A stretch of DNA of 64,000 nucleotides, from positions 141,981 through 205,980 of the forward strand of contig KL197712.1 of assembly GCA_000697665.1 (NCBI GenBank). Direction: 5' to 3'. Source of the DNA: Jaapia argillacea MUCL 33604. Its lineage: Eukaryota > Basidiomycota > Agaricomycetes > Jaapiales > Jaapiaceae. This document shows positions 2,017-51,136 of the stretch, one piece after another; position 1 is the stretch's first letter, and the number at the start of each line of letters is the position of its first letter. Below the pieces are notes generated by a model that saw nothing but the letters and a program-made list of their open reading frames with translations, made no database searches and was not told where the DNA came from. Made by a program: the position numbers and the translations under genes.

Positions 2017-2471
2017 CTACCCAGCCCTCACGCGGTGGACTGGTTTAATTTCCATTGGCGGTCCGACACGCGAGTGGTCTGAGGATGCTTTGACGACGAT
2101 GAATGCCAAATCCTGCCCAAAAAAATGACAGAGGGGCAAATGAGAAGTTAACGTCAGGGGTTACAGTTGCAGATACTCACAATGACGAGTGAAGAAAAGC
2201 TCAAGAACGTAAAATCGCGCTTTGGAGAACAGATCACCTCGGATTGTAAGGCCGCGTAGAGGCTTGATGCTTCTTCGTAGCGTTGGTCGGCAGAGTTATC
2301 GCCATGTACCTGCTTTAAGTTGAGCTACGACTTGATACCGCGGTATGCAGCGGATGGATACCCAGTAAATTGCCTCCGTCAGCCATATATCTTCTTTGCG
2401 GACACCAATCTGATAGAGTCTCGTGATGAGTCGAACGAAAGGATCGACGCGGATAGAAAGGCACTGACCAT
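2017..2471 (-). CDS. Orphan family, short member A (91 aa)
   Basis: This is an unrecognised small gene placed in a family by architecture and sequence. Coding exons are 2469-2471 (ATG only), 2362-2409, 2181-2309 and 2017-2112, all split in phase 0. The ATG is followed at once by a GTCAGT donor, as the ATG-only first exons of members D and E are followed by GT. Exon 3 ends FLSFSSLVI and exon 4 starts DLAF, matching the family core. Exon 2 begins IGVRKEDIW, comparable to GGVKLREAT in member E. There is no signal peptide, membrane segment or known domain. It is the most diverged member and lacks the upstream CGTGAC/GTCAC palindrome seen with the other five. It could be a decayed copy, but no stop interrupts the spliced frame. 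The structure is inferred by analogy. Confidence 0.55.
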
Positions 2472-4534
2472 GATGACCTGCGGGGGTCCTCAGATGAAGG
2501 GTATCAAGCCGCTGGGGGGGGCTAGTGAAATATTGCCCAAGCTCGGGCAGCCCTCCAGCGCGTGGACGGTGAGCTTGGTCAAAATATTACAAGCGAAGGC
2601 GTGTACGATTCCAGCCAAGCAACATGACAGGCGGAAATGACTGCCGTCAACCAAGTGGAGCAAGAAGAAATCGATTGAAAAATGGACATTTATTGGCTGT
2701 CGGAGATGTAGGACGCAGGAGGCGGCGAGGCTGCGGAGTGAGGAATTTAGCCTTCGAGGTGATCGACAGGAATCCTGAAAGGGGACCTGTCCATTTTCTG
2801 CGCAAAAAGTCCCGTCGGTAGACGCCTTGATGGTGGAACTAGTCCCAGTCAGACCTGAACTTGGTCGATCGCGATGCTCGCCACAGCTGCCATCAACAGG
2901 ATACCCATCTGGCCGCCCCAACACTCACAGTCGCAAGGCTCCCCCTTGGGTTTGGTTTCCATCGCCAACTCCACGAGCCTACACAACCCAGTGGCCACGA
3001 GGTGTCCCTGGGGGCTGAGGTGAATCACTCGTAAAGCAAGCCTGGAGATCGACGGGCGCTACATATCCTCGCGGAAATTTGGCTCAAGCCTGCAGCCGTA
3101 GCACCTGACCGTGGATTATTTGGATATCTATCCTCCACCGCCTTGAGGGTACTGTCGCCACGCAAGCGATTAACCCATAAAAGAAGAAACAAGGGGTAGT
3201 GGGAAATCGGTCCATCCTATCCATGTGATGTTTCCCCTCGACGTCCCTTACGCCATTGTTTCATAACTGTCTCTGGTGGCCCGCCTACCTTCAGGTCTGT
3301 GAAGTTGATGTGGAGTTTCAAAGCTCCTGTACGACAATGCGGATCCTGGCCCACATTTATTAGCTCCGGGCAATACCAAGAAGGGCGACCGAGAAACCTT
3401 ACTCTTGGCCGACGATAAGTACTTGGTCCCCTTTGTCCATCCCTCAATCGCAGACCCTGAAAGATGGAATTGAGTTAATACTAGGTCCTTAAGCTTCTAG
3501 CGGATGTACTCACCCGCACCGTCGCTCAAAGCCTCTGCTGGGGTTAGCCTACCCATCACACCGCCTACACCAACCCAGCGCCCTCAATCCGGAGATCTTG
3601 TACTTAATCGAGGAACGGCAGGCACACCAGGAGAAGTTTCAAGCTCGAAAAGATCACTATAGTCGCCAACGATCGCGTCAATATAACAAAATTGTAGGTG
3701 TATACGATGCAGCCATCGTGATCCAGATCGAAACCTTCTGCTGGCGATGAGAAGGATCCTTTACCGAGTGGTCCGTACGTAACCCAGGATTCGGATCGTC
3801 GTTCCAAGTTCTCAACCTGGTTCTCAACCACCCGAGACTTCAAGCTTCATGGTACCTCCTTATACCCCATCAGGTTTGCCCTGGCTTTCGGAGCACTCCT
3901 GATCGAGGTGAACCTGTATTCCTCTTTCAATAACCTTCAAAGCCACACAACCTTATCGAATACCCACCAGCCGCCTCACTACACAAGGAAGTGGGGGTTA
4001 TCCGCGTCAAGGTCCCCGTCAACATCAACAACTCGCCCTCTACTATGTTTCCCCCCTTCGTATCTACCTCTCAACCTTGCGCGGCCCACCTCTCGGCGCA
4101 CTCGCAGGACTTCTGGTCAATACACGCCCAGTCTGCATTTTGGATGGTATTGAAGACAGGGTCGCCCTCCTCAACTACTCCATACCAAGTCCAAACATGC
4201 ATATGATAGTTTATAACAATACATTTATCATTGCACTTTCGCTATCCCTCGACTCCCAACACTCTAACCAGCTCGGACTCAACTACACATTCCTTCATCA
4301 ACTGTGAGAGTTGTAATTCACCACTAAGTATCGGTTGCCATCGCTCTCAACAGCACTGCGAGGGAGTCGGAATTGACTCGGACGGCGAGGGATATCAGAC
4401 AATCAAAGTGATTACAGCCAGAGGAGACTTCTCCAGTCATACAATCTAATCACAACAAAAAAAGTATTTAAAAAAACATCAACAACGAAAATCGTCCTTC
4501 GTCGAACCCACAAAAACAATCATCACCAGATCCC
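2472..4534. other. Stretch without a recognised gene
   Basis: About 2 kb between orphan gene A and the gene ending at 4535. It has several open frames of 60-144 codons on both strands, but none shows a known motif or a supported exon chain. The part next to 2472 should hold the promoter of gene A. The part near 4430-4530 is A-rich and is probably 3' flank of the neighbouring minus-strand gene. Confidence 0.5.
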
Positions 4535-6596: not shown

Positions 6597-6985
6597 TGCA
6601 GCTGTCGTGATCCTTGCAGGGGAGTGCTTGAGATATTATCGTAGGGACCGCGATAGAATATATCTGAGAACAACGGAAAGGATGCAAGTCACTTGGTCTC
6701 CTTGGTAAATCACGAACCACGACCAAATAGCCGACAACAACGCGTCGCGTTCGTGACGTAATAATGTGACACTCCACCAGATGATGTGACAGTGTGATGC
6801 TAAATTTCCGATAGCCCCGCCCAGCCGCCTCTTCGCCCTTCGATCGACCCTGACAATGGTGACAAATGTCTTGAGGTATTACTTAAAAATACTCCCTCGG
6901 ATCCGTCAAATGGAATACCGGGATAGCCAGTTGGTCTTGACGCTCATCTACGATTCTTCACGAAGATAACGACCAACAACGAAAT
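6597..6985. promoter_or_regulatory. Divergent intergenic region, two head-to-head genes
   Basis: These 389 bases separate the minus-strand gene starting at 6596 from the DUF202 gene starting at 6986, so they should carry both promoters. A TGACGTAA site resembling a CRE/ATF element lies near 6751-6758. Both transcripts need leaders here. No further gene is seen. Confidence 0.45.
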
Positions 6986-7622: not shown

Positions 7623-9403
7623 TCAACCAAAACACTTGTCCCAATCCCCCTTTCCATCATGCCTAGCATACGACTGACTCTTCACAAACTTCTTCAACGT
7701 ACATAACCCGTTTCCCTTTCCACAAAACTCCAAAGGTTGCAACGCATCGTTCACCAACACCCTCACCCATTCCTTCTTCACCAACCCTCTCCCCTTCCCC
7801 TTCGCACACTGCAACTTCTCCACAACCATCCGTGCGGAGAACGGTACCATACGACTAGCTATCCACGTCCTACCATGCTCATCTGCCAAGGCAGTGGGAT
7901 CTAAGTCTTTGTCCTGTTTGAACAAGCCCATCGCAGAATATATCGCAATCATGGTATTTTCATGCGAAAAGTCGGCGTAGACGCTCCGACCGAGAGGGAA
8001 CGTTTCTGGCGACGAATCGAGGGTGTGGTTGGTTTGTGTATTGTCGCGGACTGGTTTCCCCATGAGCCGTGCCAGAAGTTCGTTGAGGTATCCAACGCCT
8101 TGAACCGGGCCCAGTTCTTGTCCGTACCTATATCACACACAAGCCCGCCATAATCGTCATGAGCAGCAGAAACACGGATAAAGTGATACAGAACGCACCC
8201 TGTCCTGTAATACTTCTGTAAATCCCCATAATACTCAAACCCCTCCCATTCCTCCTCACCAAACAACGCGCAAAAATCACTCTTGGGCAGATCAACACCC
8301 AAGGCTACAGTTTCTAACGGACACAAGGCCATTAACTTGAAAGCATCTTCGTCATTCAAATCCGCTCCTGGCGCCGCTGCATTCAGACGGGCAGTGGTGT
8401 TGGGTAAGAAGACTGAACGCCATGTCTTGAGGTATTTGCTTTCTGAGCCGACATTAGGGCACATGGCGTTTTGGAGAGTGTCGTTCGACTGTGGGAAGAG
8501 GGAGAGATTAGACTATATGTGAGGTGAAGATGATGAAGAGACTTGCTTTTTCTGAGATGACCACGGAGAGAGATGGCAAGTATTTGTAGCGGCTTGCAAC
8601 GGCGAACCCTGAAGAAACCATTGACGACAGTCGAATTTCAGACAAGAAAACATTTCTTACCAGCCGTCCAGTTCATAGCAGAGTCAACAACTCGTTCCGA
8701 ACCAGAAGCTCGGACGAACGGAAGGTTCTCACCACTGACTAGAGAAGAGTATCGGCTAAAAGCCACCATTCCCGCTTCAAAAGACCTACGAAACAGTGAG
8801 CCCTCCGAGTTGAACGACAATCTAACGAAAACTTACTGCTCAGCTCCAAGCGGTACAAGATCATCCGCTCCCAAGAAATATGAATGATTTCGCAAGAAGT
8901 TAAGACGCGGGTCCTTGAACTCGTCCGCTCGTTGCATCTTTGCAATGGCTTGTTTGAAATCAGGAGGGTCGTCGGCTGTGGGATACCGTGCTCCATGCCG
9001 TTGCAACTGTGATCATGTCAACGCAAGGCCGAGGTAGTAATGGAGCTGAACTCACGATATGGACCTACAAAGTCCCATCTTTCTTAGCCCTGCCAGGGTG
9101 CACGGGTAAGTGCGGAGCGAAACTCACCTGCTTCACTTCACAGCCTTTGGGTGGCGGCGCATACTCTGCCATAGGCGTATACGGGCGATATTGTGCCCAG
9201 TACTTCTGTATGTCGCCTCCATCGACGTTCTGTGTAGACAACTGCGGAACCTGACGGCCAAGGGCAACATTCCACGCCGAAAGGAGCAGCAGCGAAGCGA
9301 CGACAAGACTGAACCTCAATAGGGACCACGATTTGCTAGAGGTGGATTCACGAAGTCGAGTATGAGTTTCGACCGGAAGGAGTGGTTGCTTTTCTCCATC
9401 CAT
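7623..9403 (-). CDS. Phytase-type histidine acid phosphatase (478 aa)
   Basis: Clade-2 histidine phosphatase of the fungal phytase type, releasing phosphate from phytate or other phosphomonoesters. Exons are 9128-9403, 9056-9064, 8837-9006, 8661-8785, 8547-8608, 8199-8488 and 7623-8127, totalling 1,437 bases in frame. The catalytic motif RHGARYP is at residues 98-104. Family blocks FVRASGSERVVDSA, LGPVQGVGYLNELLARL and YADFSHEN follow. The proton-donor pair, HD in Aspergillus PhyA, reads His366-Glu367 here. Exon 2 has 9 bases and restores CEVKQVHILQRHG. The intron after 8547 is GC-AG. The start at 9403 is the first ATG. The N-terminus (MDGEKQPLLP... then a hydrophobic stretch at about 27-50) looks like a type II signal-anchor rather than a plain signal peptide, so the enzyme may be membrane-tethered or cleaved later. 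Confidence 0.92.
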
Positions 9404-9793
9404 TGAACAGTATCGTATGCGGGGGTAGGTAGATGGCAACGGTGGAGCGTGAATACCGAGGTTTTATACCAGCTATGCGGTTTAGTTTGCGACGACAATG
9501 CTGGAGACATGCAGCAGGCATGCATGTCATCATAGATAAGGTAGAAGACAGAGATAGAGTTGGCAGGTATCCAAGTCCACCGTGCATCATGATCGGCGTC
9601 ATGGCTTTGTGCTTGTGTGACCGGAAATTGCGAGCCTTCAATCATTCGCATCGTGCACCCTGGTAGGACCAACGAAAATTAAGGCTACATATCCTGTACA
9701 TATATATCCTACCCCTTACCATCTCATACCAAACGACCACTAGGCCGCCATCGTCTGTACCATTAATATTCTCTGTATTCATCCAAGCTCAGA

Positions 9794-9877
9794 ATGGAAG
9801 CTCCTCAGCCTCTTCAGGACACTTTGCCAACTACCGTAGCTCATTCGGTGTTCCACCGTCCAGCTCACCCAACATGA
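9794..9877 (+). CDS. Possible 27-codon upstream ORF
   Basis: This short ORF starts MEAPQPLQDTL and its stop codon overlaps the start of the next ORF as ATGA at 9874-9877. Such an overlap is compatible with re-initiation on one transcript, or it may be chance. No family was recognised. It lies about 390 bases from the divergent phytase start. Confidence 0.25.
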   Translation: MEAPQPLQDTLPTTVAHSVFHRPAHPT

Positions 9878-10224
9878 TCCTGATAATGGCTGAATACCTT
9901 CTCACCTACGGAGAATCACAACGATGGGCGAAGAGACGTGGAATCAAACTTAAGAAAGCCTCGCTTTGCACCTCTATGAACGATCTATTCAAACGCATGC
10001 ACCTCGACCACGCCTTTGATGCCACCCCAGTTGATTGGCCTCGTGGTCACCGGACTGCAGGAGTTAAACGTCGTGCCATGATCCTATTGACTGGGGTGAC
10101 ATTGAAGGACCCAAAAGCCAATATTTATCGATGGGATGAAGTAGAGGAATCGTGTTCGCTCTTGTGTCCTTATCTATCCAAGACTGAGGGTCGTTCAAAT
10201 CCCCAGCGTGTGAGAGTCAAATAG
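9874..10224 (+). CDS. Small hypothetical protein (116 aa)
   Basis: A single open frame beginning MILIMAEYLLTYGESQRWAK and ending NPQRVRVK. It is basic and moderately helical, with no membrane segment after residue 12 and no motif I can name. It ends exactly where homology to the unit 1 repeat begins (about 10225), so it was probably not part of the duplicated unit. No intron is needed. It could be an orphan gene or the broken end of an older one. Confidence 0.4.
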   Translation: MILIMAEYLLTYGESQRWAKRRGIKLKKASLCTSMNDLFKRMHLDHAFDATPVDWPRGHRTAGVKRRAMILLTGVTLKDPKANIYRWDEVEESCSLLCPYLSKTEGRSNPQRVRVK

Positions 10225-10386
10225 ATCTATTGATCAACAGGAGCAGGACCGGATGACATAGGGTGCGCAACCAGGATGAAGAAAGGAACGAGTGAAGGAA
10301 GCAAATGGATAGGTCTTTTTAGAAAACAATCGCGGACGAATAATCCATCAAACAGGAGTCGACCAGCGGCATGGCAAACACCAAGG

Positions 10387-10992
10387 CTAATTCGATAAGT
10401 CCACGGAGGACAAAGTAGGAAGAGGTTTGGAAGGTCTGCTAGAACCTGCCATCGCTCCCTGACATTTTCTCTTGATAGCGAGAGCCAGGTCCTAGAGACA
10501 TGACATTAGTACATGAAAAAGACGATTAAAAGTAGGAACTCACAATGACGAGGGTCGAAAATCGCTTCCGACTATGACGCGACGGAGGCCGCGTCCCTTC
10601 CTCTGCAGCTAGGCTGTCGAGAGCTACCTGAAGATTGATAACGTCCGTGTTGTCTGCGACTTCGGGGGCAATCTCTGGCTGAAATGCGACACGACGTTGA
10701 GTACAAAGACGGTATGAGAGTGTGTCGACAACATACCCAAGTCAAAGTCGGGAAGAACATTGGGTCGTCGTATGGATAGTCCACAGTCATCTGCGCATAC
10801 AATCAACTTACCGCCAAGATCGCGAACAAGAAATAAAGGGGGACTGACAGTGACAGGATCCACCGGCCTCGTTGGAGACGACCTTGCATACGTATGATTG
10901 TAAGAGCGGCGATCAGGGGCTACATCTCGCGTATTCTGCGTCTGGGTAACAACCAAGGTGAACGCTGGCAAAGACTCCTCAAGAACACGCAT
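10387..10992 (-). CDS. Orphan family, long member 1 (145 aa)
   Basis: Exons 10849-10992, 10737-10790, 10544-10678 and 10387-10491 (48+18+45+35 codons) are all joined in phase 0. The protein starts MRVLEESLPAFTLVVTQTQ; exon 2 encodes MTVDYPYDDPMFFPTLTW; exon 3 carries the family core NLQVALDSL and ends RKRFSTLVI; exon 4 begins DLALAIKRKCQG. The first intron starts GTCAGT, has 58 bases and ends after a CTGAT-like branch site. Reading through it would put exon 2 in another frame, but the three copies differ there only at positions that are synonymous in the spliced frame. No known domain, signal peptide or membrane segment. A TATTTAA box lies about 110 bases upstream. Whole in all three units. 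Function unknown. Confidence 0.7.
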
Positions 10993-11096
10993 GGGGGCTA
11001 AGGAGGGAGTCTCGAGAGAAAATTGTGGAGTAAGAGAGAGCAGAAACGAGAAGCGAGCGGTCGAAAAAAAACGAAGGGGTAAAGAAACATGCTCCC

Positions 11097-11112
11097 CGGT
11101 TAAATAAGCTGC
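11097..11112 (-). promoter_or_regulatory. TATA-type core promoter of long member 1
   Basis: On the minus strand the sequence reads GCTTATTTAACCGGGGAGC, followed by a pyrimidine-rich leader up to the ATG at 10992. The same box and leader precede the copies in units 2 and 3. Confidence 0.6.
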
Positions 11113-13981
11113 GATATGTTGGAAATTGCATCAGACGGCGTTCAGGGTTCGAGAGCTAGTTTGTCGGAGAGGAGAGGGTGTTGCCCGTTTTGGAGTTTCG
11201 GAGGCAGCCAATAGGGGAGAGGAATTAGAGTGGGTGCGCTTTACCACTCTCCGCGGCGACAAAAGAAAGTCGTCATCCACTGGAAACCAACCGTCAAGCC
11301 ATTCGTGCTTGCATTTGGACATCTGGGAATAGTCGGCCAATCGAATTCCTTCCCAGTGCATTCTCGTCGATACGCGGATACCCCGTGGCATCGAGGTGAA
11401 GATGGGTCGACCAGCAACAACCTATATGCACACGCCTCTATCCATTTACTGAGGGAAATCTCAGCTGTTGACGCCATGGGCTGTTTGCAAGATGCAAACG
11501 GAACTGGATACGGGACAGCGCGCCTTGGAAACCGACCACCACATCTCGTTTTCAGGGCTACCTGAACGATGGGATTCCTCCAGTACTCGGTGCACCCGGT
11601 TGGCCTCCCTAGCGGAGAATCCCCAAAGAGCGCATAGCTTTAGGTTCAGGGTGTAGGACAGACTCCTTCACCTCAATGTCTTCAATTCCACTCCAAAGCA
11701 GATTTGCTTCCGTGTTCCCACATGGGTCGATCGTCTTGCAGGAGGGAGTGATGGCTCCGGTCCCTACTAGGACAGTCACTATCGAGGGAAATATCAGTAT
11801 GTATCCATCAAAAACCTCCTCAATGAAATAAAACGCTTCCTCCGTATCCTGCTTCCAACCCCCAAGGCTCCTGAACTCGTTTTCCGTGTGTCACAATGTG
11901 TGACGAAAGCGTGACGTTTGTCACGCAGGCTCATGCAGCCGCCAAAGAGGCAAGTTAACATCAGCCAACTCGTCCATGGAGCTCAACTGAACCGTCAAAC
12001 AATCCAGCTCAAGAACAAGATCCAATATTTGGTGTGATCAAGCCTCATTTGCGACAGAGAGCCATCGCAGTCCAGACGGACCCCACGCGAGCAGCTGTGG
12101 ACCACAAGCAGCGACTATCCACCCACAAATTTTCCAACACATACAAGCGGCGCAAAAGTCCCAACAACTTCCATATATTGGTCTGGGAAGGACTCACCGC
12201 TCAAGGTTCTCCGTCTGATTTCGGAAGGGTCGCCATGCGCCCTCCTGAGTCCTGCCATTTGGCCTGAAGGCGGCAAATTCAAGTCGTGAATGAATCGCAG
12301 TTCCACAGCGAGCTTGGGCAGAAGGAAATTGCTTGCAATCCCGTTGGGGGCGTATCGACAGACGAATACCGACAGCAAGAAACGGTGAAGAAGACACCAG
12401 AAGATAGCAGTCATTTGCGCAGAGGATGTGTTGGGAGCCTGGCAGATATTCTGGTGGAAATTGGAGATTGATGCTCTGACGGAGCTGGTCGGTCTCCTGC
12501 CAGCCTTGGATCATAATTGCACCGTCAAAAGGGGGTTAAACGGCCAGCCCGTTCAGCCCATTGTCGCTGGTGATAGGTGCTGGTCCTGTGGCAGAATGTT
12601 CGAAGAAGGGATGGTGCAAGGGCCCTGCCCCATCGGGAACTCGGCAACACGTTTCGCAAGTCCGCGAGGCGGCGACGGCGGCGACAACGCAACCACTCGA
12701 CGATTTTCTGGCTCCAGCATATACACCTTTCGAGTTTTATGTCTGCTGGCCTACAGTTTCTTTCCCGAGAACTCATCTCTGAATTTGCGACGGTGCAATC
12801 CCAGAACTCCTTCATGCGCCAAGAACTCGTTCAACGGATATAACCCTACACCAAGCTTTGCGCCAAAAACAAACCGCTTTACGCTCAAAGCAATTTAAGT
12901 CCCCGCCCATCCACAATTATTCTTTTCCAACGTGATGGTCCCAATTCTTGTGCTTCCAGGACACCCGGCGGAGGATCTGTCGTGGTTGTGGAGCAGGTTT
13001 GGTGGTCTGTGGTCGGTCAATATCCAGGGTACCAGCGCAGCTTCGGGTGAATGTCCTCGCAACAGGTTCGCCTTACTTTGTGCACTCACCTTCCGTTGGA
13101 GTTGACGACGAGAGCTGACTCTTACAGCCAGATCGCAGCTCATCACCACGGTCAATATCTCGCCCGAGACTTGTCCACGCTACGTCGTCCGCTGGCCTTG
13201 TCCACTCGAACGCCGCCGCTCTGTCTCACACCTTGGACGCTTTCGTCAACTTCCCCACACCTGATGGGAGATCCCGCCGTATTGCACACTACCCAGGCCT
13301 TTCCTGGTACCCTCGCATTTCTCTCCAACGATATCTCCGCCTGTCTCTCCGAAAATGCTAAATACAACTTACACCCCTTCGTCCACCATACCTCTTTGCT
13401 ATTCTTCCACTCTGCGAGCCGAGGTTTCGTCATGTCGCAATTATCGTCTCAGCCCCATGGTATATGAAACCGCCATGAATACTAGTCAAATCCCCCCAGA
13501 CTGAACTCCGAAACTTGCCCTGGGAGCGGGTCGCATTACGGACCGAGCCTCCCTTGCGCATCTCTGAATCATTCCATTCAGGACCGGCACATTTCGATGG
13601 GCCGAATACGGTTCCTTTACTGCTGGGACCTCACCAACGACAGGATGTCACAAGATCCAAATCGAAGGACACTATGCCAAGGCGCACTCCCTTCCAGAGC
13701 TGAAACACCTCTGTCACGGCTATATCGGATCCCGCATACGCCTAGTTCCTTGACAAGGATTTGGGCTTAGGCTGACAAGTGTCTCACTTGAGACCTCGCC
13801 GATGTTTGGTATCAGAGGGCAACCTGCCCGCTCAGTCGCGTCCGCGATCACTCCAATACATCAGTTGTGTGGAGCGATATACAGTCCGTGAAGCAAACCC
13901 ACGAACGGCCCCATTGGACACCTGGTATAAAGCCTTTTGCCTGGTTGACACAGATTGCTAGATAATCCTATAGTCACGCCG
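11113..13981. other. Middle of unit 1, no supportable gene
   Basis: This segment is similar to 16720-19588 and, inverted, to 47548-50410. Both strands hold open stretches, but frames do not agree between the three copies and the differences are not biased to third positions in the frames I compared. A few short stretches keep a shared reading, for example VLPGHPAEDL near 12950 and EGHYAKAHSLPELKHLCHG near 13660, which may be remnants of an old gene. It also carries the CGTGAC/GTCAC palindrome at 11910-11925. Confidence 0.5.
11910..11925. promoter_or_regulatory. Palindrome CGTGAC-N4-GTCACG
   Basis: The sequence CGTGACGTTTGTCACG is a 6+6 inverted repeat with a 4-base spacer, flanked by further GTGAC/GTCAC half-sites (about 11889-11906). 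It lies about 925 bases upstream of the ATG of long member 1. Equivalent palindromes precede four other family members. Confidence 0.5.
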
Positions 13982-15330
13982 AACCTCCCTCTTGCGAACC
14001 GGGCCAGACCCCCCGGCGATCATCTCCTCAATCTCGCGTCAGGCAACAGGCAAGGGAATATGTCCATCGACAATCTCCAAAACACTATTGTGAGTTACAT
14101 ATGCTTGCTATGGAAGATATCCCTCCTAGCCTTCGGTAGTATGGAACCAGCATCACGCTCGGTGGTGTCGGTGGGTTTTCAAGCATCTTTTTCCAACTGC
14201 GTGCTCACCTGTTTGTTTCAGACATGATCGTCGTCATCGACAGTGGCTCCTCCGATCTTTGGGTATACCCGCCCTCGAAGCTTCAACTGATCAACCGAAC
14301 GTCCATCCACGGCAACCTATCGTGCGGTGAAGGCACTGTCCAGGTCTCTATCAAAGGCACTGTCCAGGTCTCTATCAAAGGCACTGTCCAGGTCTCTATC
14401 AACTTTGCAAAACTGAAGAATAGGTCTTGTACGGTTCCATCTCAAGGTGGGCGTCATGACTTTCTCTGGGATCTTTAGAACTCATGGTGCCATAACGACA
14501 ACAGCCTTCATCAACGTCCAAAATGTGAGCCAAAAGCCCTGCCTCACGAGTTTCCCTCTAAATTGATTCCTATGTGCACAGCATACCGAAGCGGACGGGC
14601 TTTTCGAGCAAGGAATATACGGCGTCCTCGGCCTTGCCTTCGATAACTCCTCCACAGCTTACGTCTTACTCAAGCAAGCGTATGGATCGAACGACACTCG
14701 GTCTGACGCCCCTCACCAACATTTTCCAACAAAACGCCTCTACTGCCAACTTCATAGTCATTCAATTTCGTCGTGTAGATGATCTTGCAAGCACTCCAGA
14801 GGGAGAATTCACCATTTCCGAGTATATTCCGCGGTTCTCAAACATTTTCAACGCCCCCAAGTTGTCGCGGGTACGCCGAAAGGAAGCAGCGTAGCTGTTC
14901 TCGACACGGGATACACGCTACCCCCCTTAACGCGACCTCTGGTCTGTTTACGATAAAGAAGAGGGTGTATGGATAGTGCCGTGCTTGAACACCACTGATC
15001 TTGAATTCACTCTTGGGTAAGTCATGATCACCAGCTTTCTGACGCGATCAATATCTCATCGTTATCCACAGCGGTGACGCCTTCTTCATTCATCCTGTGG
15101 ACATTACCAACCTTACCACCATCGAACTTCCGAATGGCTCTTCGGTGACATTCTGTTTCAATACATGTCAGCCCTTCACACTCGACCCGAAAGGTTTTTT
15201 GGGCTTTGACATGATCCTAGGAGATGCTTTCTTAAGAAATGTATGTGCACTGTGAGTAAACTGGAACGGAGACCATTCCATAGATTCGATTATGGGGATT
15301 ATAATAACAGTGATGGTTTCAGCAACCGAT
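13982..15330 (+). pseudogene. Aspartic protease, broken copy in unit 1
   Basis: Homologous along its length to the whole gene at 45883-47547. It keeps the first active-site block VVIDSGSSDLWV (near 14230-14265) and the second, AVLDTGYT (near 14893-14918). It has lost the initiator and signal peptide: similarity starts at the propeptide NLPLANRARPPGDHLLNLAS. It also lacks about 100 bases of exon 5 before the second Asp and about 30 bases after it, and the 3' exon is cut short. A 24-base in-frame triplication (14332-14403) sits in the flap region. It cannot make a secreted protease. Confidence 0.85.
14332..14403 (+). repeat. 24-base tandem repeat, three copies
   Basis: The 24-mer beginning GGCACTGTCCAGG is present three times without a break, adding repeats of GTVQVSIK to the protease frame. 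Units 2 and 3 have one copy, so the expansion is private to unit 1 and probably recent. Confidence 0.9.
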
Positions 15331-15999
15331 CCACCTCGACCTCACTTAACCGCGAGCTAATTAGCTTGTATATCAAATGTAATTGCTACCGGCTCTCTCT
15401 GTTATTTTTATCATGTTGTTGTATCTGATGGAATGGGAAGTACGTGTATTCGAGAGAATCTGACGAGGGTTTTCGAAATATAATGTCTACCGTGATGAAG
15501 AGACGCTGCAGCAGTGGGTGAAGGTGGTGGATTGTGACGAGTTTACTTACGATTACTATGAATTGTGGTTAAACCACCAGTGACCGGGAGTGTAACATAC
15601 GGGGGCGAGGACTCGCGCGAACGAGGGTGGCGCTTCCTTCCCTTGATCTATTATCTCAGGTTGAGCTTTCATTTATTATAATGGAAATTGTCGAACCTGA
15701 GCTCGGTTTGGGGAACGTCACACATTGCCTGTTTCCCATGGTCTCTCTGTATCATACGGCACTCTCACTTGTCTCCTTACTTTTCCCGTGAGGAGACGAT
15801 CATTCAGATCTCCCGCATGCAAGAGTTAAGCAGATGTATTGATCGAAAGGGGAGCAGGACCGAGACTGGGAAGATGACATAGGGTGTGCGCAACCAGGAT
15901 GAGCAAAGGAATGAGTGAAGATACATCTTTTTAGAAAACAATTATGGACGAATAATCAATCCAACGGGAGTCGACAGCGGCACGACAAACAACCCAAGG

Positions 16000-16603
16000 C
16001 TAAGCCAACATGTCCACGGAGGACAAAGTAGGAGAAGCTTTGGGAGGACTGCTGGAGCCTGTCAACACTCCCTGACATTTTCTCTTGATAGCGAGAGCCA
16101 GGTCCTAGAGGTATGACATAAGTACATAAAAAAAGACGATGAAAAGGAGGAATTCACAATGACGAGGGTCGAAAATCGCTTCCGACTATGACGCGACGGA
16201 GGCCGGGTCCCTTCCTCTGCAGCGAGGCTCAGAGCTACCTGCAGATTAACAGCATCCATATTGTCCGCCACTTCCGGGGCAAACTCGGGCTGAAACGTGA
16301 CACGATGTTGAGCACGAAGACGGTATGGGAGTGAGTTGACAACATACCCAAGTCAAAGTCGGGAAGAACATCGGGTCGTCGTATGGATAGTCCCCAGTCA
16401 TCTGCGCATACAATCAGCTTGTCGCCGAAAGCGCGAACAAGAAACAAAGGGGGACTGACAGTGAAGGAATCCACCGGCCTCGTTGGAGACGACCTTGCAT
16501 ATATATGGTTGGAGGAGCGGCGATCAGGGGCTACGTCTCGCGTATTCTGCGCCTGGGTAACAACCAGGGTGAAGGCAGGGAAAGGCTCCTCAAAAACACG
16601 CAT
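16000..16603 (-). CDS. Orphan family, long member 2 (144 aa)
   Basis: Exons 16460-16603, 16348-16401, 16158-16289 and 16000-16104, all phase 0, match members 1 and 3. Exon 3 is one codon shorter through an in-frame 3-base loss after LQVAL. The protein starts MRVFEEPFPAFTLVVTQAQ; exon 2 reads MTGDYPYDDPMFFPTLTW; the core RKRFSTLVI then DLALAIKRKCQG is kept. The donor of intron 3 is GTGAAT rather than GTGAGT. The frame is fully open although the protease in the same unit is broken. Function unknown. Confidence 0.7.
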
Positions 16604-16703
16604 GGTGACAACGGAGGAGTATCGAGAGAATTGTTGAGTAGGAGAGTGTACAAACGAGAAGAGAGCGGTCGAAAAAAAGCGAAGGGGTAAAGAAACATGC
16701 TCC

Positions 16704-16719
16704 CCGGTTAAATAAGCTG
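16704..16719 (-). promoter_or_regulatory. TATA-type core promoter of long member 2
   Basis: On the minus strand it reads GCTTATTTAACCGGGGAGC, identical to the box in unit 1, about 110 bases upstream of the ATG at 16603. Confidence 0.6.
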
Positions 16720-19588
16720 CGATATGTTGGATATTGCATCAGACGGCGTTCAGGGTTCGAGAGCTAGTTTGTCGGACGGAGAGGAGAGGGTGTTGCCCGT
16801 TTTGGAGTCTCGGAGGCAGCCAATAGGGAGGCGGAACTAGAATGGGTGCGCTCTACCACTCTCCGCGGCGACAAAAGAAAGTCTTGATCCACTGGACACC
16901 AACCGTCAAGACATTCGTGCTTGCATCTAGACATCTGGAAGTAGTCAGCGAATGGAATTCCTCGCTTGAGAATTCTCTCAATCCGAGGGGTGCCCGTGGC
17001 ATCGAGGCGAAGATGGCGAGTCGACGAGCAACAGCCTATATGCTCATGCCCTTTATCCATTTGCCGCGGGAAGTTCCTGCTGTCGACGCCAAGGGAACTT
17101 CGCAAGACGAAACCAGAGCTGGATGTGGGGCAGCGCGGGTTGGAAATCGACCACCACATCTCACTTTCAGGGCTACCTGAACGATAGGATTCCTCCAGTA
17201 CTCGATGTGCCCGGCTGGCCTCCTCAGCGAAAGATCCCCAAAGAGCGTATAACTTGAGGTTCAGGGTGCAGGACAAACTCCTTGACCTCAATGTCTTCAA
17301 TTCCACTCCAAAGCAGATTTGCTTCCGTGTTCCCACACGGGTCGATCGTCTTACAGGAGGGAATGATGGCGCCGGTCTCCACTAGGACAGACACTATCGA
17401 GACGAATATCAGTATGTATCCCATCAGAAACCTCCTCAATGAAATAAAACGCTTCGTCCATATCCTGCTTCCAACCCCCCAAGGCTCCCGAGCTCGTCTC
17501 CCATGCGTCACAATGCGTGACGAAAGCGTGACGTTTGTCACGCAGGCTTATGCAGCCGCCAAGGAGGCAAGTCGACATCAGCCAACTCGTCCATGGAGCT
17601 CAACTGAACCGTCAAACAATCCAGCTCAAGAACAAGATCCAAGTTTTGGTGTGATCAAGCTTCATTTGCGACACAGAGCCATCGCAGCCCAGATGGACCC
17701 CGCGCGAGCAGCCGTGGACCACAAGCAACGACTATCCGCCCCCAAATTTTCCAACACATCCAAGCGGCGTAGAAGTCCGAACAACTTCCATACATTGGTC
17801 TGGGAGGGACTCACCGTCTACGGTTCTCCGTCTGATTTCGGAAGGGTCGCCATGCGCCCTCCTGAGTCCTGCCATTTGGCCTGAAGGCGGCAAATTCAAG
17901 TCGTGAATGAATCACAGTTCCACAGCGAGCTTGGGCAGATGGAAATTGCTTGCAATCTCGTTGGGGGCATATCGACAGACGATTACCGACAGCAAGAAGC
18001 GGTGAAGAAGACACTAGAAGACAGCAGTCATTTGCGCAAAGGATGTGGTGCGAGCCTGGCAGATATCCAGATGGAAATTGGATATTGACGCTCTGACGGA
18101 GCTCGTCGGTCTCCTGTCAGCCTTGGATAATAATTGCACCGTCAAAAGGGGGCCAAACGGTCAGCCCGTCCAGCCCATTGTCGCTGGTGATAGGTTGTGG
18201 TCCTGTGGCAGAATGTTCGAAGGGATGGTGCAAGGGCCCTGCCCCATCGGGAACTCGGCAACACGTTTCGCAAGTCCGCGAGGCGGCGACGGCGACTACA
18301 CAACCACTGGACGATTTTCTGGCTCCAACATATACGCTGCTTCACCAGTTTTGTGTCTACTGGCGTACGAATTCTCTCCCGAGGACTCATCTCTGAATTT
18401 TTTACGGTGCAATCCGTGGAACACCTTCAGTGCGCCAAGAACTCGTTCAACGGATATACCCCCACACCAAGCTTTACACCTCAAAAAAATCGCTTTACGC
18501 CTTGAAAGCAATTCAAGAATTATTCTCCCCCAACGTGATGGTTGCAATTCTTGTTCTTCCAGGACACCCAGCGGAGGACCTGGCGTAGTCGTGGAGCAGG
18601 TTTGGTGGTCTGTGGTCGGTCGATATCCAGGGTGCCAGTGCAGCTTGGGGCGAATTTCCTCGCAAAAGGTTCACCTTACTTTGTGCACTCACCCTCCGTT
18701 GGAGCTGACGACGAGAGATGACTCTTTCAGCCAGATCACACCTCATTATAATTGTCAATATCTCGCCCGAGACTTGCCCGCGCTACGTCGTCTGCTGGCC
18801 TTCTCTTCGCTCGGACGCCGCCGCTCTGCATCACCCCTTGGGAAGCTTTTGTTGACTGCCCCACACCTACTGGGAGTACTCTATTCCACACTGCCCAGGC
18901 ATTTCCCGTTATCCTCGCATATCTCCCCAAGGATGTCTCGCCTCGTCTTCGCCGTCCTCTCAAAATGAATATGAGCCACGTCCCTTTGTCCACCATACCT
19001 CTTTTCTATTCTACCACCCCGCCCGCCAAGCTTCCGTCGCGTCAGACATACGGTCTCGGCCCCGTGGTATATGAAATCGCCATGAATCCTAGTCAACTTC
19101 CTCAGACTGAAATCCGAAACTTGTCCTAGGGGCGGGTCGCATTACAAACCGAGCCCCCCCCTTCTCTGAATCATTCCATTCAGGACCGTCACATTTCGGA
19201 TGGGCCGAGTACGGCCCCTTTACTGCTGGGACCTCACCAACGGAAGGGCGTCAAAAGGTCCAAATCGAAGGAAACTATGCCAAGGCGCATTCCCTCCCAG
19301 AGCTGAAATACCTCTGTCACGGATGTATCAGATCCCGCATACACCTAGTTCCTTGACAAGGATTTGGGTATAGACTAACAAGTGTCTCACTTGAGACCTC
19401 GCCGATGGCTCGGTATGAGAGGGCACCCTACCCGCCGCTCAGTCACGTTCGCGATTACTGCAACACATCAGTTGTGTCGAGCAATGTACAGTCGGTGAAG
19501 CATGCCGACGAACAGCGCCATTGGAGGCCTGGTATAAGGCCTTTTGCCTGGTCGGCACAGATTGCCAGGTGGTCCGACAGTCGCACTG
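16720..19588. other. Middle of unit 2, no supportable gene
   Basis: The equivalent of 11113-13981. The longest open frames here (200 codons from 17282 and 307 codons from 18045, plus strand) are interrupted or shifted in the other two copies, so I do not call them genes. The palindrome CGTGACGTTTGTCACG is at 17527-17542, about 930 bases upstream of long member 2. Confidence 0.5.
17527..17542. promoter_or_regulatory. Palindrome CGTGAC-N4-GTCACG
   Basis: Same 16 bases as in unit 1, with extra GTCAC and GTGAC half-sites just upstream (about 17506-17521). Confidence 0.5.
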
Positions 19589-21068
19589 AACCTCCCTCTT
19601 GCGAACCGGGCGAGACCCCGTGGTAATGATCTCCTCGATCTCGCGTCAGTGTAACAAAAAGTGGGAATCTATCCATCGACAATCTCCAAAACACTATTGT
19701 GAGTTACATATGCTTGCTATGGAAGATGTCCCGCTTAACCTTCGGTGTTACGGAACCAGTATCACGTTCGGTGGTGTTGGTGAGCTTCAGCTATCTTTTT
19801 CCAATTGCGCGCTCACCTGTTTGTTTCAGACATGATCGTTGGCATTGACAGTGGCTCCTCCGATGTTTGGGTATACCCACCCTCGAAGCTTCAACTGACC
19901 AACCGAACGTCCATCCACGGCATCCTATCGTACGGTGAAGGTTTTGTCCAGGGATTTATCGACTTTGCAGAACTGAAGATTGGGCCTTATACTGTCCCAT
20001 CTCAAGGTACGCGTCATGACTTCTTTCAAAGTCCAGGGTCTTTGGAACTCATGGTGCCATATTGACAACAGCCTTCATCAACGTCCAAAATGTAAGTCAA
20101 AAGCCCTGATTCACCAGTTTCCCTCAATTAATTCGTATATGCACAGTATACCGAAGAGGACGGGCATTTCGAGCAGGGAATATACGGCATCCTCGGCCTT
20201 GCCTTCGATAACTCCTCCACAGCTGACGTCTTACTCAAGCCAGCGTATGAACGGACAACACTCTCGGTCTGACGCCCCTGACCAACATTTTCCAACGAAA
20301 CGCCTCTATTCCCAACTTCATAATCATCCAGCTTCGTCGTGCAGATGATCTTGCAAGCACCCCGGAGGGAGAATTCCCCATATTCCACGGTTTTCAAACA
20401 TTTCCAGCGCCCCCAAGTTGTCGCGCTTTCCTCCGACTTCACTCCACTGTCGCGAGTACGCCGAAAGGAAGCAACGTAGCTGTCCTCGACACGGGATACA
20501 CGCTGCCTCCCTTACCGCGACCTCTGGTAGACTTCATATATGGCAACATCTCCGGAGCTGTTTACGATAAAGAAGAGGATGTTTGGATAGTGCCGTGCTT
20601 GAACACCACTGATCTTGAATTCACTCTTGGGTGGGTCACTGGCTTTCTCGCGCAATCAATATCTCATCGTTATCCACAGCGGCGACGCCTTCGTCATTCA
20701 TCCAGCGGACATTATGAAGCTTACCACGATCGAACTTCCGAATGGCTCTTCGGTGACATACTGTTTCAATACATATTAGCTTTTCACGCTCGACCCGAAA
20801 GGTTTTTCAGGCTTTGACATGATCCTAGGAGACGCTTTCTTAAGGAATGTTTGTCACTGAGTAAACTGTAACGGAGACCATTCCATAGATTCAATTATGG
20901 GGAATATAACAACACCAATGGTTTCAGCAACCAATCTTGTCTTCGGTTGCTTTCCACCACGAATGGATCGACCGCATATAGCAGTAGCCGAAACCAGACA
21001 CCAGCATTGCCCACCTGAACTGCCTCGAGTCACTCAAAGCCCTCGGAGACAAGAAAAGGTCCTTGTAG
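19589..21068 (+). pseudogene. Aspartic protease, broken copy in unit 2
   Basis: Homologous to the whole gene at 45883-47547 from the propeptide (NLPLANRARP) to the C-terminal KKRSL and stop. The signal-peptide start is missing, as in unit 1. The propeptide frame runs into a stop (DLLDLASV then TAA) near 19655, and exon 5 has deletions upstream of the second active-site block. The first active-site block reads GIDSGSSDVWV and the second AVLDTGYTLPP. The many small deletions indicate a pseudogene. Confidence 0.85.
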
Positions 21069-24048: not shown

Positions 24049-24080
<32 letters not shown>

Positions 24081-32701: not shown

Positions 32702-33108
32702 ATGGTGTGTTCGTTTTCCCGTGGGCAGTTTTTGTTAATCCACTGATACTCTGTCGCGTTCAGGGTGGTGTCAAGCTACGAGAAGCTACTATGTTACAGC
32801 CGCAAGTTTTGGCCTCTACGGTACTCAGCTAGAGGTCTACTGGGCTCAAGGGCTCAACTAATATCGGCTCAGGTTCCGACCTCCTCCTTTGGATTGAGTT
32901 CTCAAGATGTTTTGAACCTTCACGTCGCTCTTGGACCTGGAAATTACGCCAATACCTCTGGGGGTTTCAAGTTCATTCGATTGTCGACTCTGGTGATTGT
33001 GAGTCGTCTCCTTGTCATCCGTCTGATATTAATTATCATCCATGCGTTGATCAGGACTTGGCATTCACGAAACACCATCAGAATCTCGCTATGTTCAGTG
33101 TCCGCTGA
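32702..33108 (+). CDS. Orphan family, short member E (79 aa)
   Basis: Exons 32702-32704 (ATG only, followed by GTGTGT), 32764-32820, 32873-32998 and 33055-33108 are joined in phase 0. Exon 2 reads GGVKLREATMLQPQVLAST. Exon 3 holds DVLNLHVALGPGNYANT and ends FKFIRLSTLVI. Exon 4 reads DLAFTKHHQNLAMFSVR. The close match to member D in exon sizes and the shared HHQN motif support the model. No recognised domain or targeting signal. Function unknown. Confidence 0.62.
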
Positions 33109-45882: not shown

Positions 45883-47547
45883 CTACAAGGACCTTTTCTT
45901 GTCTCCGAGGGCTTTGAGTAACTCGGAAGGAGGCAACTCAGGTGGGTAATGCTGGAGCGTCTGGTTTCGGCTACTGACGAAGTCACTGTATGCTGTCGAT
46001 CCATTCGTGGTGGAAAGCAACCGAACATAAGATTGGTCACTGAACCCATCAGTGTTGTTATATTCCCCATAATCGAATCTGTCGAAGGCGTCAATGAGAT
46101 GGAGATATGATCACGTTCCGGTTTACTCACAGTGCATAAACATTTCTTAAGAAAGCGTCTCCTAGGATCATATCAAAGCCTGAAAAACCCTTCGAGTCGA
46201 GGGTGAAGGGCTGATATGTATTGAAACAGAATGTCACCGATGAGCCATTTGGAAGCTCGATCGTGGTTAGGTTGGTAATGTCCAGGGGATGAATGACAAA
46301 GGCGTCGCCGCTGTGGATAACGATGAGAATTTGATCGCGCGAAAAAACTGGTGACTTACCCGAGAGTGAATTCAAGATCAGTGGTGTTCAAGCACGGTAC
46401 TATCCAAACATCCTCTTCTTTATCATAAACAGCGCCAGAGATGTTGCCATATATGAAGTCGACCAGAGGTCGCGGTAAGGGAGGCAACGTGTATCCAGTG
46501 TCGAGAACAGCTACGCTGCTTCCTTTCGGCGTACCCGCGACAGTGGAGTTCAACGGGTAAGACTTTCCATGTACGGTGACACCATCGACAAGGACTGTCC
46601 ATCGCTCAAAGTTTGACGTTGGAGGAAAGCGCGGCAACTTGGGGGCGTTGGATATGTTTGAGAAACGTGGAATATACTCGGAAATGGTGAACTCTCCCTC
46701 CAAAGTGCTTGCAAGATCATCTGCACGACCAAGTTGGATGGATATGAAGTTGGGAATAGAGCCGTTTTGTTGGAAAATATTGGACAGAGGCGTCAGACCG
46801 AGAGTGTTGTTCACTCCATACGCTTGCTTGAGTAAGATGTCAGCTGTGGAGGAGTTGTCGAAGGCAAGGCCGAGGATGCCGTATATTCCTTGCTCGAAAA
46901 GCCCACCCTCTTCGGTATACTGTGCACATAGGAATCAATTTAGAGGGAAACTCGTGAGGCAGGGCCTTTGACTTACATTTTGGACGTTGATGAAGGCTGT
47001 TGTCAATATGGTACCATGAGTTCCAAAGACCCTGGAATTTGAAAGTCATGGCGCCTACCTTGAGATGGAATAGTATAAGACCCGATCTTCAGTTCTGCAA
47101 AGTCGATAGAGCCCTGGACAGAGCCTTCACCGTACGACAGGTTGCCATGGATGGACGTTCGGTTGGTCAGTTGAAGCTTCGAGGGTGGGTATACCCAAAG
47201 ATCGGAGGAGCCACTGTCGATGACGACGATCATGTCTGAAACAAACGGGTGAGCACGCAATTGAAAAAAGATATTTGAAAACTCACCGACACCACCGAGC
47301 GTAATACTGGTTCCATACTACCGAAGGCTAAGCAGGGCATCTTCCATAGCAAGCAGATACAACTTACAATAGTGTTTTGGAGATTGTCGATGGACAAATT
47401 CCCACTTGCTTGTTGCGCTGACGCAAGATTGAGGAGATGATTGCCGGGGGGTCTCGCCCGTTTCGCGAGAGGGAGATTCATCGCTGTTGTGGGACTACCT
47501 AGCATGAGTCCCAAGATACAGAATTGGAGTAACACCGATTGCTTCAT
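45883..47547 (-). CDS. Secreted pepsin-type aspartic protease (447 aa)
   Basis: A1-family endopeptidase. Seven exons in frame: 47368-47547, 47287-47317, 47059-47235, 46977-46996, 46360-46919, 46131-46310 and 45883-46078 (1,344 bases). The N-terminus MKQSVLLQFCILGLMLG is a signal peptide, followed by a propeptide with LAKRARPP (Kex2-like KR). The mature part has YGTSITLGGVDMIVVIDSG, the first catalytic Asp in DSGSSDLWV, flap region LSYGEGSVQGSIDF, IYGILGLAFDN, the second catalytic Asp in AVLDTGYTLPPLP, and FDMILGDAFLRNVYALFDY near the end. Several NxT/S glycosylation sites are present. Exon 2 needs the acceptor ending TTCGGTAG to give YGTSITLGG. The two other copies in the window are broken, so this is the only working gene of the set here. 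Confidence 0.93.
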
Positions 47548-50410
47548 GTTGTTTGGGATTTGGATGGGTTATAGCCATCTACATCGACCAGGCCAAAGTT
47601 TTATACCAGGCATCCAATGGGGCTGTTCGTCGGCATGCTTCACGGATCGTACCTTGCTCGACACAACCGAAGTGCTGGAGTGAGCGGATGTGAGTGAGCG
47701 GGCAGTGTGCACCCTGGTAGCCATCCACCGGCGAGCTCTCAAGTGAGACACCTGTCAGTCCACACCCAAATCCTTGCCGAGAAACCAGGCAAATGCGGAA
47801 TCTGATACATCCATCGCGAAAGAATTTCAACTTTGGAAGGGAATGCGCCTTGGCATAAGTAGTACCCTTCGATTTGAGCCTTTTGACGCCCTTCCGTTAG
47901 TGAGGTCCCAGCGGTCGAGGGATGACACTCGGCACATCTGAAATGTGACGGTCTTGAAAGGAATGATTCAGAGAAGGGAAAGGGAGGGGGACTCGGTTTG
48001 GAATGCGACCCGCTCCCTGGGCAATTTTCGGAATGGAAGTTGAGGAGGATTACATGGCGGTTTCATATAGCACGAGGGACCGTATGTCTGACACGACGAA
48101 AGCTTGGCTAGGGGCCGAGAAGAAGAGCAAAGAGGTATGTTGGACGAAGGGGCGTAGCTTAAATTTAGCATTTTCGGAGAACGGCGAAGACAAGTAGAGA
48201 TCCCTGGAGAGAGATGGGAGGATAGAGAGAAAGGCCTGGGTAGGGTGGAATAGGGTGGAATCTCCGAGTAGTTGCGGGGCAGTCAAGGAAAGCTTCCCAA
48301 AGGGTGAGGTGTAGCGACGCCGTCCGAGTGAAGAAGAAGGCTAGTAGACGATGAGCACAGAGAAGTCTCGGGCGAGATATTGGCAGTTGTGATGAGGTGT
48401 GATCTGGCTGTAAGAGTCATCTCTCGTCGTCGGCTACGACGGAGGGTGAGGACACAAAGCAAGACGAACCTGGAGAGGAAATTCGCACCAAGCTGCACCG
48501 GTACCCTGGATATTGACCGACCACAGGCCACCAAACTCGCTCCACGACTACGCCAGGTCCTCCGCTGCGTGTCCTGGAAGAACAAGAATTGCAACCATCA
48601 CGTTGGGGGAGAATAATTCTGGATATGCGGTGACTTAAATTGCTTTCAAGGCGTAAAGCGATTTTTTTGAGGCGTAAAGCTTGATGTAGGGGTATATCCG
48701 TTGAACGAGTTCTTGGCGCACTGAAGGTGTTCCACGGATTGCACCGTACAAAATACAGAGATGAGTCCTCGGGAGAGAAATCGTAAGCCAGTAGACACAA
48801 AACTGGTCAAGCAGCGTATATGCTGGAGCCAGAAAATCGTCGAGTGGTTGTGTAGTCGCCGTCGCCGCCTCGCGGACTTGCGAAACGTGTTGCCGAGTTC
48901 CCGATGGGGCAGGGCATCCCTTCTTCGAACATTCTGCCACAGGACCACCACCTATCACCAGCGACGACAGGCTGCATGGGCTGACCGTTTGGCCCCCTTT
49001 TGACGGTGCAATTATTATCCAAGGCTGGCAGGGGACTGACGAGCTCCGTCAGACCGTCAATCTCCAATTTCCATCTGGATATCTGCCAGGCTCGCACCAC
49101 AACTTCCCCACAAATGATTGCTGTCTTCTAGTGGATTCTTCACCGTTTCTTGCTGTCGGTAATCGTCTGTCGACATGCCCTCAAACGGGATTGCAAGCAA
49201 TTTCCATCTGCTCGGGCTCCCTGTGGAACTGTGATTCATTCACGACTTGAATTTGCCGCCTTCAGTCCAAGTAGCAGGAGGGCGTTTAGCGACCCTTCCG
49301 AAATCAGACGGAGAATCATGGACGGTGAGTCCCTCCCAGACCAATGTATGAAAGTTGTTGGGACTTCTGCGCCGCTTGGATGTGTTGGAAAATTTGGGAG
49401 TGGATAGTCGTTGCTTGTTGTCCACGACTGCTCGCGCGGGGTCCATCTGGACCGCGATGGCTCTGTGTCGCAAATGAGGCTTGATCACACCAAATCTTGG
49501 ATCTTGTTCTTGAGCTGGATTCCTTGATGGTTCAGTTGAGCTCCATGGACGAGTTGGCTGATGTTAACTTGCCTCCTTGCGGGCGCATGAGCCTGCGTGA
49601 CGTGTCACGCTTATCGTCACACATTGTGACGCATGGGAGACGAGCTCGGGAGCCTTGGGGGTTGGAAGCAGGATATGGAAGAAGCGTTTTATTTCATTGA
49701 GGAGGTTTCTGATGGGATACATACTGATATTCGCCTCGATGGTGTCTGTCCTAGTAGGGACCGGAGCCATCGTTCCCTCCCGCAAGACGATCGACCCATG
49801 TGGGAACACGGAAGCAAATCTGCTTTGGAGTGGAATTGAAGATATTGAGGTCAAGGAGTCTGTCCTGCACCCTGAACCTCAACTTATGCGCTCTTTGGGG
49901 ATCCTTCGCTAAGGAGGCCAGCCGGGCGTATCGAGTACTGGAAGAATCCTATCGTCCAGGTAGCCCTGAAAATGAGATGTGGTGGTCGATTTCCAAGCCG
50001 CGCTGCCCCACATCCAGCTCTGGTTTCGTCTTGCGAAGTTCCCTTGGCGTCGACAGCAGGAACTTCCCGCGGCAAATGGATCAAGGGCATGAGCATATAG
50101 GCTGTTGCTCGTCGACTCGCCATCTTCGCCTCGATGCCACGGGCACCCCTCGGATTGAGAGAATTCTCTAGCGAGGAATTCCATTGGCTGACTACTTCCA
50201 GATGTATAGATGCGAGCGCGAATGTCTTGGCGGTTGGTGTCCAGTGGATCAAGACTTTCTTTTGTCGCCGCGGAGAGTGGTAGAGCGCACCCAGTCTAGT
50301 TCCGCCTCCCTATTGGCTGCCTCCGAGACTCCAAAACGGGCAACACCCTCTCCTCTCCGACAAACTAGCTCTCGAACCCTGAACGCCGTCTGATGCAATT
50401 TCCAACATAT
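47548..50410. other. Middle of unit 3, no supportable gene
   Basis: The inverted equivalent of 11113-13981 and 16720-19588. Open frames are not conserved between copies. It contains the palindrome CGTGACGTGTCACG at 49596-49609, 930 bases upstream of long member 3. Part of it is the upstream region of the protease gene and should hold that promoter (47548-47900). Confidence 0.5.
49596..49609. promoter_or_regulatory. Palindrome CGTGAC-N2-GTCACG
   Basis: CGTGACGTGTCACG is an inverted repeat with a 2-base spacer, followed by CGTCACACATTGTGACG, a second loose palindrome (49616-49632). It is 930 bases upstream of the ATG at 50532. Confidence 0.5.
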
Positions 50411-50414
50411 CGCA

Positions 50415-50430
50415 GCCTATTTAACCGGGG
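50415..50430 (+). promoter_or_regulatory. TATA-type core promoter of long member 3
   Basis: GCCTATTTAACCGGGGAGC precedes a C/T-rich leader (about 50450-50525) running to the ATG at 50532. Units 1 and 2 have the same element with one base changed. Confidence 0.6.
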
Positions 50431-50531
50431 AGCATGTTTCTTTACCCCTTCGCTTTTTTTCGACCGCTGTCTTCTCGTTTCTGCTCTCTCCTACTCCACA
50501 AATTTCTCTGGAGACTCTCTCCGCAGTCCCC

Positions 50532-51136
50532 ATGCGTGTTCTTGAAGAGCCTTTCCCTGCCTTCACCTTGGTTGTTACCCAGGCGCAGAATATGCGAGAT
50601 GTAGCCCCTGATCGCCGCTCTTACAACCATACGTATGCAAGGTCGTCTCCAACGAGGCCGGTGGATCCCTTGACCGTCAGTTCCCATTTATTTCTTGTTC
50701 GCGCTCTTGACGGTGAGCTGATTGTATGCGCAGATGACTGTGGACTACCCATACGACGACCCAATGTTTTTCCCAACTTTGACTTGGGTATGTTGTCGAC
50801 ATACCCATGCCGTCTTTTTTCTCAACGTCGTGTCGCATTTCAGCCCGAGATTGCCCCCGAAGTGGCGGACAATACAGACGCTGTCAATCTGCAGGTAGCT
50901 CTCGACAGCCTCGCTGCAGAGGAAGGGACCCGGCCTCCGTCGCGTCATAGTCGGAAGCGATTCTCGACCCTCGTCGTTGTGAGTTCCTCCTTTTGATCAT
51001 CTTCTTTTATGTACTCATGTCATTTCTCTAGGACCTGGCTCTCACTATCAAGAGAAAATGTCAGGGAGTTTTGACAGGCTCCAGCAGGCCTCCCAAAGCT
51101 TCTCCTTCTTTGTCCTCCGTGGACAAGTTGGCTTAG
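50532..51136 (+). CDS. Orphan family, long member 3 (145 aa)
   Basis: Exons 50532-50675, 50734-50787, 50844-50978 and 51032-51136 (48+18+45+35 codons) are all in phase 0. Starts MRVLEEPFPAFTLVVTQAQ; exon 2 MTVDYPYDDPMFFPTLTW; exon 3 PEIAPEVADNTDAVNLQVAL and ending RKRFSTLVV; exon 4 DLALTIKRKCQGVLTG. Against member 1, exon 2 has three differences, all synonymous. Exon 3 has nine synonymous and three conservative changes. Exon 4 is much freer after KRKCQG. So the middle of the protein, not the tail, is under constraint. No known domain. Function unknown. Confidence 0.72.

Follow-up and report, generated by a model that had tools for sequence, protein, structure and literature searches.

The window analysed here, a stretch of 64,000 nucleotides from Jaapia argillacea MUCL 33604 (contig KL197712.1, hereafter C4, positions C4:141981-205980 of a 43.7-Mb, 95-contig assembly), carries six members of a family of small four-exon genes that has at least 17 copies in the genome. 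The short introns and the gene content also point to a basidiomycete. We propose that the family encodes small proteins that are co-regulated and not secreted and that carry a conserved segment for docking at the C-terminus, (F/L)(S/T)(S/T)LV(I/V)DLA, a reading to which we give a probability of about one half.

Gene models in the window

Splice models were enumerated at the six loci and one consistent exon set was then applied. All six, which a first-pass annotation of the window had already placed at these coordinates, have an ATG start, a stop and an open protein read through three GT-AG introns. In coordinate order they are m2 (2017-2471, minus strand, 91 amino acids (aa); exons 2471-2469, 2409-2362, 2309-2181 and 2112-2017), m10 (10387-10992, minus strand, 145 aa; exons 10992-10849, 10790-10737, 10678-10544 and 10491-10387), m16 (16000-16603, minus strand, 144 aa; exons 16603-16460, 16401-16348, 16289-16158 and 16104-16000), m27 (27540-27946, plus strand, 78 aa; exons 27540-27542, which is ATG only, 27603-27659, 27717-27839 and 27893-27946), m32 (32702-33108, plus strand, 79 aa; exons 32702-32704, again ATG only, 32764-32820, 32873-32998 and 33055-33108) and m50 (50532-51136, plus strand, 145 aa; exons 50532-50675, 50734-50787, 50844-50978 and 51032-51136). 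For m2, 73 three-intron models reach the family motif, and exon 2 is its least certain part.

As described in the annotation, one exon closes in FS(T/S)LV(I/V) or LSTLVI at every locus (FSSLVI, FSTLVI, FSTLVI, FSTLVI, LSTLVI and FSTLVV, in coordinate order), the exon after the intron opens with DLAF or DLAL, and the spliced models have all introns in phase 0. The LxVAL or LYAAL motif that it assigned to the preceding exon is present, but it lies in the FSTLVI exon itself. A DNA pattern for this exon end and its donor, allowing at most one mismatch, matched the window six times (three exact matches and three with one mismatch), exactly at the six loci, while 100 shuffles of the window gave a mean of 0.00 matches. 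Because this pattern was derived from the motif of the annotation, independent support has to come from further copies elsewhere in the genome. A chance motif was ruled out by the shuffle mean together with the eleven further copies described below.

Copies across the genome

Searches that score best candidates only, so that the total is a lower bound, brought the number of copies to 17, on contigs C2, C4, C5, C7 and C15. The homologous family with a common phase-0 exon plan that had been proposed for the window stands, but with 17 genomic copies in place of six members. Ten copies lie on C4 and the remainder on four other contigs; the intact ones span 78-145 aa. They form subfamilies A (seven long genes, including m10, m16 and m50), B (four short genes, including m27 and m32) and C (five long genes), with m2 standing alone. 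DNA and protein searches gave the other A copies at C4 278.7 kb (c4a), 283.4 kb (c4b) and 287.5 kb (c4c) and at C7 318.7 kb (c7), as well as the other B copies at C15 56.2 kb (c15a) and 61.6 kb (c15b). A degenerate pattern search gave the C copies at C2:1284 kb (c2a), C4:517 kb (c4d), C5:1012 kb (c5a) and C5:1060 kb (c5b), and protein searches added c2b at C2:983 kb. The degenerate pattern matched the genome 15 times, 13 times in the family and twice outside it, against four matches for the reversed control pattern; m16, m27, c15a and c2b were not caught by it.

A tblastn search with m2, at expectation values (E) up to 10, returned m2 itself only. Scored against a profile built on exons 2-4 of 15 further members, m2 reached 30.7 bits, the best of 5000 shuffles reaching 10.9, a score somewhat favoured by the choice of an m2 splice model that contains the motif. 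We excluded c4b from the profile, and likewise from the tree and the exon 2-4 substitution analysis given below; both c7 and c4b were excluded from the full alignment.

The two matches outside the family, at C2:707919 and C28:87478, were found on reading not to be members. The gene at C2:707919, which we take to be RAMP4/SERP1-like, encodes a protein unrelated to the family. Its DNA fits the exon-end pattern, and an intron appears to separate an ATG-only first exon from the rest of the gene. ATG-only exons are therefore apparently not peculiar to the family. Small multi-exon genes, some with a three-base first exon, are easily overlooked by gene finders.

Intron positions and selection on the coding sequence

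The exon end (F/L)(S/T)(S/T)LV(I/V), the intron and the DLA(F/L) opening were found in all 17 copies, which share the four-exon plan and whose introns (51 of 51 GT-AG, 49-68 nt) lie at equivalent sites. Phase is 0 in 15 copies, the frame being broken in exon 2 of c4b and in exon 1 of c7. The intron sites were placed by homology, which makes the common phase partly a matter of construction, and for this reason it is the pattern of divergence that provides independent evidence for genes. Retention of the intron would disrupt the frame in 42 of the 51 cases. A CTRAY-like branch site occurs 6-40 nt upstream of the acceptor in 27 of 51 introns, compared with 20% of 5000 random window segments.

The ratio of nonsynonymous to synonymous substitution rates (dN/dS) is mostly 0.1-0.4 overall, and third codon positions are the most variable, clearly so in A and C. 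Within A, exons 2-4 gave 0.08-0.37 in 14 of 15 pairs, the remaining pair being saturated, and exon 1, computed without c7, gave 0.15-0.66 in 14 of 15 pairs. Subfamily B gave 0.27-0.59 (six pairs), with a weaker third-position excess than in A and C; in C the excess is seen both in exon 1 and in exons 2-4 (ten pairs each). These values show that most coding pairs are under purifying selection on the protein. Exon and intron identities were compared in 14 pairs, and in the distant long pairs exon identity exceeds intron identity: 63-80% and 43-48% for m50-c4c, 60-81% and 40-45% for c5a-c2a, 60-70% and 38-52% for c2a-c2b. A non-coding RNA was considered and rejected, as the codon-position pattern favours coding and a scan of the window against Rfam at gathering scores gave no match.

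Shared promoter elements

Upstream of the long genes, three elements always come in the same order. E1, TCCAAAACGGGYAAY, has its start between -175 and -233, E2, AACGCCGYCNNATGNAATTT, lies at -138 to -179, and the third element, the TATA-like CTATTTA, is at -112 to -143. In m10 they make up a proximal promoter at 11101-11194 on the minus strand (E1 11194-11180, E2 11142-11123, TATA-like element 11107-11101 with one mismatch), and m16 and m50 have them in the same order. The promoters of 11 of the 12 long genes were readable, c4b being masked in that region. E1 with 0-1 mismatches precedes ten of these genes (c2a is the exception), E2 with 0-2 mismatches precedes nine, and CTATTTA with 0-1 mismatches precedes all eleven. 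The E2 matches of c4a and c2b have four and five mismatches; matches as weak as these also precede B genes and m2, and they count for little.

In the whole genome, all eight listed exact matches to E1 and all eight listed matches to E2 with at most one mismatch lie upstream of family genes, and neither reversed control gave any match. Both patterns were built from family sequence, and the informative part of this result is that none of the listed matches lies elsewhere. An element of the B genes, GACGGCAACCTTCCGAAC, has four matches in the genome, all exact and each before one of the four B genes; the reversed control also has four matches at up to two mismatches, and the strength of the result lies in the exactness. 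Upstream of m27, this element starts at -307 and is paired with ATAACGCCGTC from -274 (27233-27276, plus strand), and before m32 it stands at -243. The core of E2, AACGCCGTC, is found upstream of three of the four B genes too. No good match to any of the three, E1, E2 and the B element, precedes m2. On this evidence, most A and C genes share putative proximal promoter elements that are private to the family among the listed genome matches. Such family-only elements could be used for finding the regulator.

Protein features and proposed function

In scans of 4, 4 and 10 members, Pfam gave no match above its curated cut-offs, the best being CENP_C_N at E 0.066, with 13.1 bits where the cut-off is 27. 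Nothing rose above noise in NCBIfam or in the PDB, where three profile matches at E 0.1 were judged to be noise, and this agrees with the annotation, which had recognised no known family. A one-peptide pattern gave 45 matches in prokaryote genomes and 7 in viral contigs with no relative among them; the peptide spans the third intron site, so that an intron-bearing relative would escape. The family is called orphan here relative to Pfam, NCBIfam, the PDB and these prokaryote and viral collections, no fungal collection being among those searched. A literature search, in which few subscription journals were covered, gave no description of the family and no mention of four core peptide strings.

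In ten aligned members the invariant columns are M1, A84, L85, L107, V108, D110, L111 and A112, namely the start methionine, the last two residues of LxxAL and every residue of LV(I/V)DLA except the variable I/V. VIDLT is one form of SUMO-interacting motif, and the V-(I/V)-D-L core, a four-residue hydrophobic core present in all 17 copies, might itself act in this way: it would bind SUMO or partners modified by SUMO, and the Ser/Thr before it would serve as a phospho-switch. One paper on such motifs describes that of PML as built on a four-residue hydrophobic core, VVVI (PMC8616421). The family shares with SUMO-interacting motifs the hydrophobic V-I-D-L core, but the serine/acid-rich flank is missing, the flanks in A and C being basic rather than acidic (RKRFST...KRK, VKRLSL...RRR). 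Short motifs like V-I-D-L also occur by chance; we regard the likeness as a resemblance only and SUMO binding as rather improbable.

Small size, several copies and partial clustering are also what secreted or membrane-bound effectors or toxins would show, and m2 has one hydrophobic stretch. The N-termini are polar, however (MRVLEE..., MRPLEP..., MGGVKLRE...), and reading by eye revealed no clear signal peptide in them, in line with the small intracellular protein inferred in the annotation. Cysteines number 0-2 in all seven proteins computed, and the best 19-residue hydropathy, 0.85-1.18 in six of the seven, is low for a membrane helix. An effector or toxin role appears highly improbable. Mating pheromone precursors of basidiomycetes, which feature a C-terminal CAAX box, were rejected as well, as no such box was seen by eye in any of the 17 C-termini.

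We favour instead co-regulated adaptors or regulators, probably nuclear or cytosolic, both the compartment and the adaptor role being guesses. The conserved C-terminal segment, in which a variable loop separates an LxxAL stretch from (F/L)(S/T)(S/T)LV(I/V)DLA, would bind a single partner common to the family. Location or a second contact would be set by the N-terminal arm, which is variable, being basic and RRKRQR-like in C and absent in B. Several observations speak against this proposal. Close pairs have similar exon and intron identity, and some B comparisons are reversed, intron 2 of m32-c15a being 73% identical against 63-65% for the exons. Three of the 17 copies appear damaged: c4a starts with GTG, c4b has a 1-nt insertion in exon 2, and in c7 the start codon is absent and the frame of exon 1 is shifted. 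The dN/dS is 0.66 for exon 1 of c4a-c4b and 0.59 for c15a-c15b. The hydropathy of m2 reaches 1.89 and could pass for that of a membrane-associated protein, and the core segment, taken as a helix, has a hydrophobic moment within the shuffle range in the seven proteins (fraction as high 0.07-0.41).

Lineage-restricted small multigene families are a known general kind in fungi. The family described here resembles them in its small size, lack of a Pfam match, several copies and partly tandem or segmental duplication; it differs in its conserved intron sites, private promoter elements, few cysteines and lack of an obvious export signal. It represents an uncharacterised fungal protein set that is under selection.

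An ATG codon stands directly before intron 1 in 14 of the 17 copies. It closes exon 1 in nine of the 12 long genes and makes up all of exon 1 in the five short ones; the window A copies have ACT or ACC in its place. Conceivably, this ATG served ancestrally as a second start from which a short isoform was made, and the isoforms were later split between duplicates, a scenario that we consider doubtful. If it were true, the window A copies would have kept the long form only, and the short genes would be duplicates keeping the short form only, four of them with a promoter element of their own. The many paralogs suit testing of isoform and promoter partition between duplicates.

Family history and a duplicated block

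A tree of 16 copies, rooted at the midpoint only, groups A (98/100) and B (96/91) and splits A and C from B and m2 (99/97). Subfamily C is not one clade in it (bootstrap support for a single C clade is 17%), and the branch of m2 is long. Synonymous divergence (dS) in exons 2-4 is 0.16-0.27 among the window A copies m10, m16 and m50. It is 0.76 for m27-m32, making the short window genes older, and within A it is at least 1.2 or saturated between the window copies and those at C4 278-288 kb and on C7. These comparisons indicate that m10, m16 and m50 are a recent triplication carried in a 5-kb block. Because the other dS values are higher or saturated, recent expansion appears limited to one branch within an older family: the recent expansion claimed for all six genes holds for those at 10.4, 16.0 and 50.5 kb, but the rest of the family is older by dS. 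Copies arose partly through segmental and tandem duplication.

The 5.1-kb duplicated block contains the family gene and a divergent aspartyl protease. Its first copy (10191-15331, unstranded) is followed by a second at 15800-20936 and an inverted third at 46031-51329, an arrangement of two tandem copies and one inverted. The protease copies lie at 13.8-15.3 kb (plus strand), 19.4-20.9 kb (plus strand) and 46.0-47.6 kb (minus strand); the open reading frame at 46.4 kb matches PF00026 above the cut-off and that at 14.1 kb below it. The protease frame is long in the 46.4-kb copy, and the other two look interrupted, though unrecognised introns are possible. The small family genes are open in all three blocks.

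This setting, together with the three damaged distant copies, would fit decaying duplicates or hitch-hikers of the larger block without a function of their own. Yet purifying selection is seen in most pairs across all subfamilies, and the small genes remain open in blocks 1 and 2, where the protease looks interrupted. Moreover, when the block at 15.5-21.2 kb was used as a query, the sequence retrieved from around the C4 278-288 kb array and the C7 copy gave no protease match. We judge such decay or hitch-hiking to be improbable. Among the Pfam matches of ten window open reading frames there was no mobile-element family, no systematic transposon examination having been made.

Near-identical transfer RNA (tRNA) genes, called tRNA-Lys (ctt), lie at 1731-1814 and 59102-59186 of the window. 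A copy just upstream of the window, 94-98% identical and on the opposite strand, is called tRNA-Arg (tct); as near-identical copies receive different calls, one of the two calls is doubtful. The C7 copy of the family is flanked by inverted and direct repeats, at about 47-1490 and 9314-10000 of the fetched stretch L033 (C7:314000-323999). Far upstream of the A genes, a block at 12610-12674 is 88-90% conserved in the distant copies on C4 and C7 and open on both strands, and another at 11961-12199 is about 72% conserved in them, with stops in some; both may be regulatory or an unrecognised exon.
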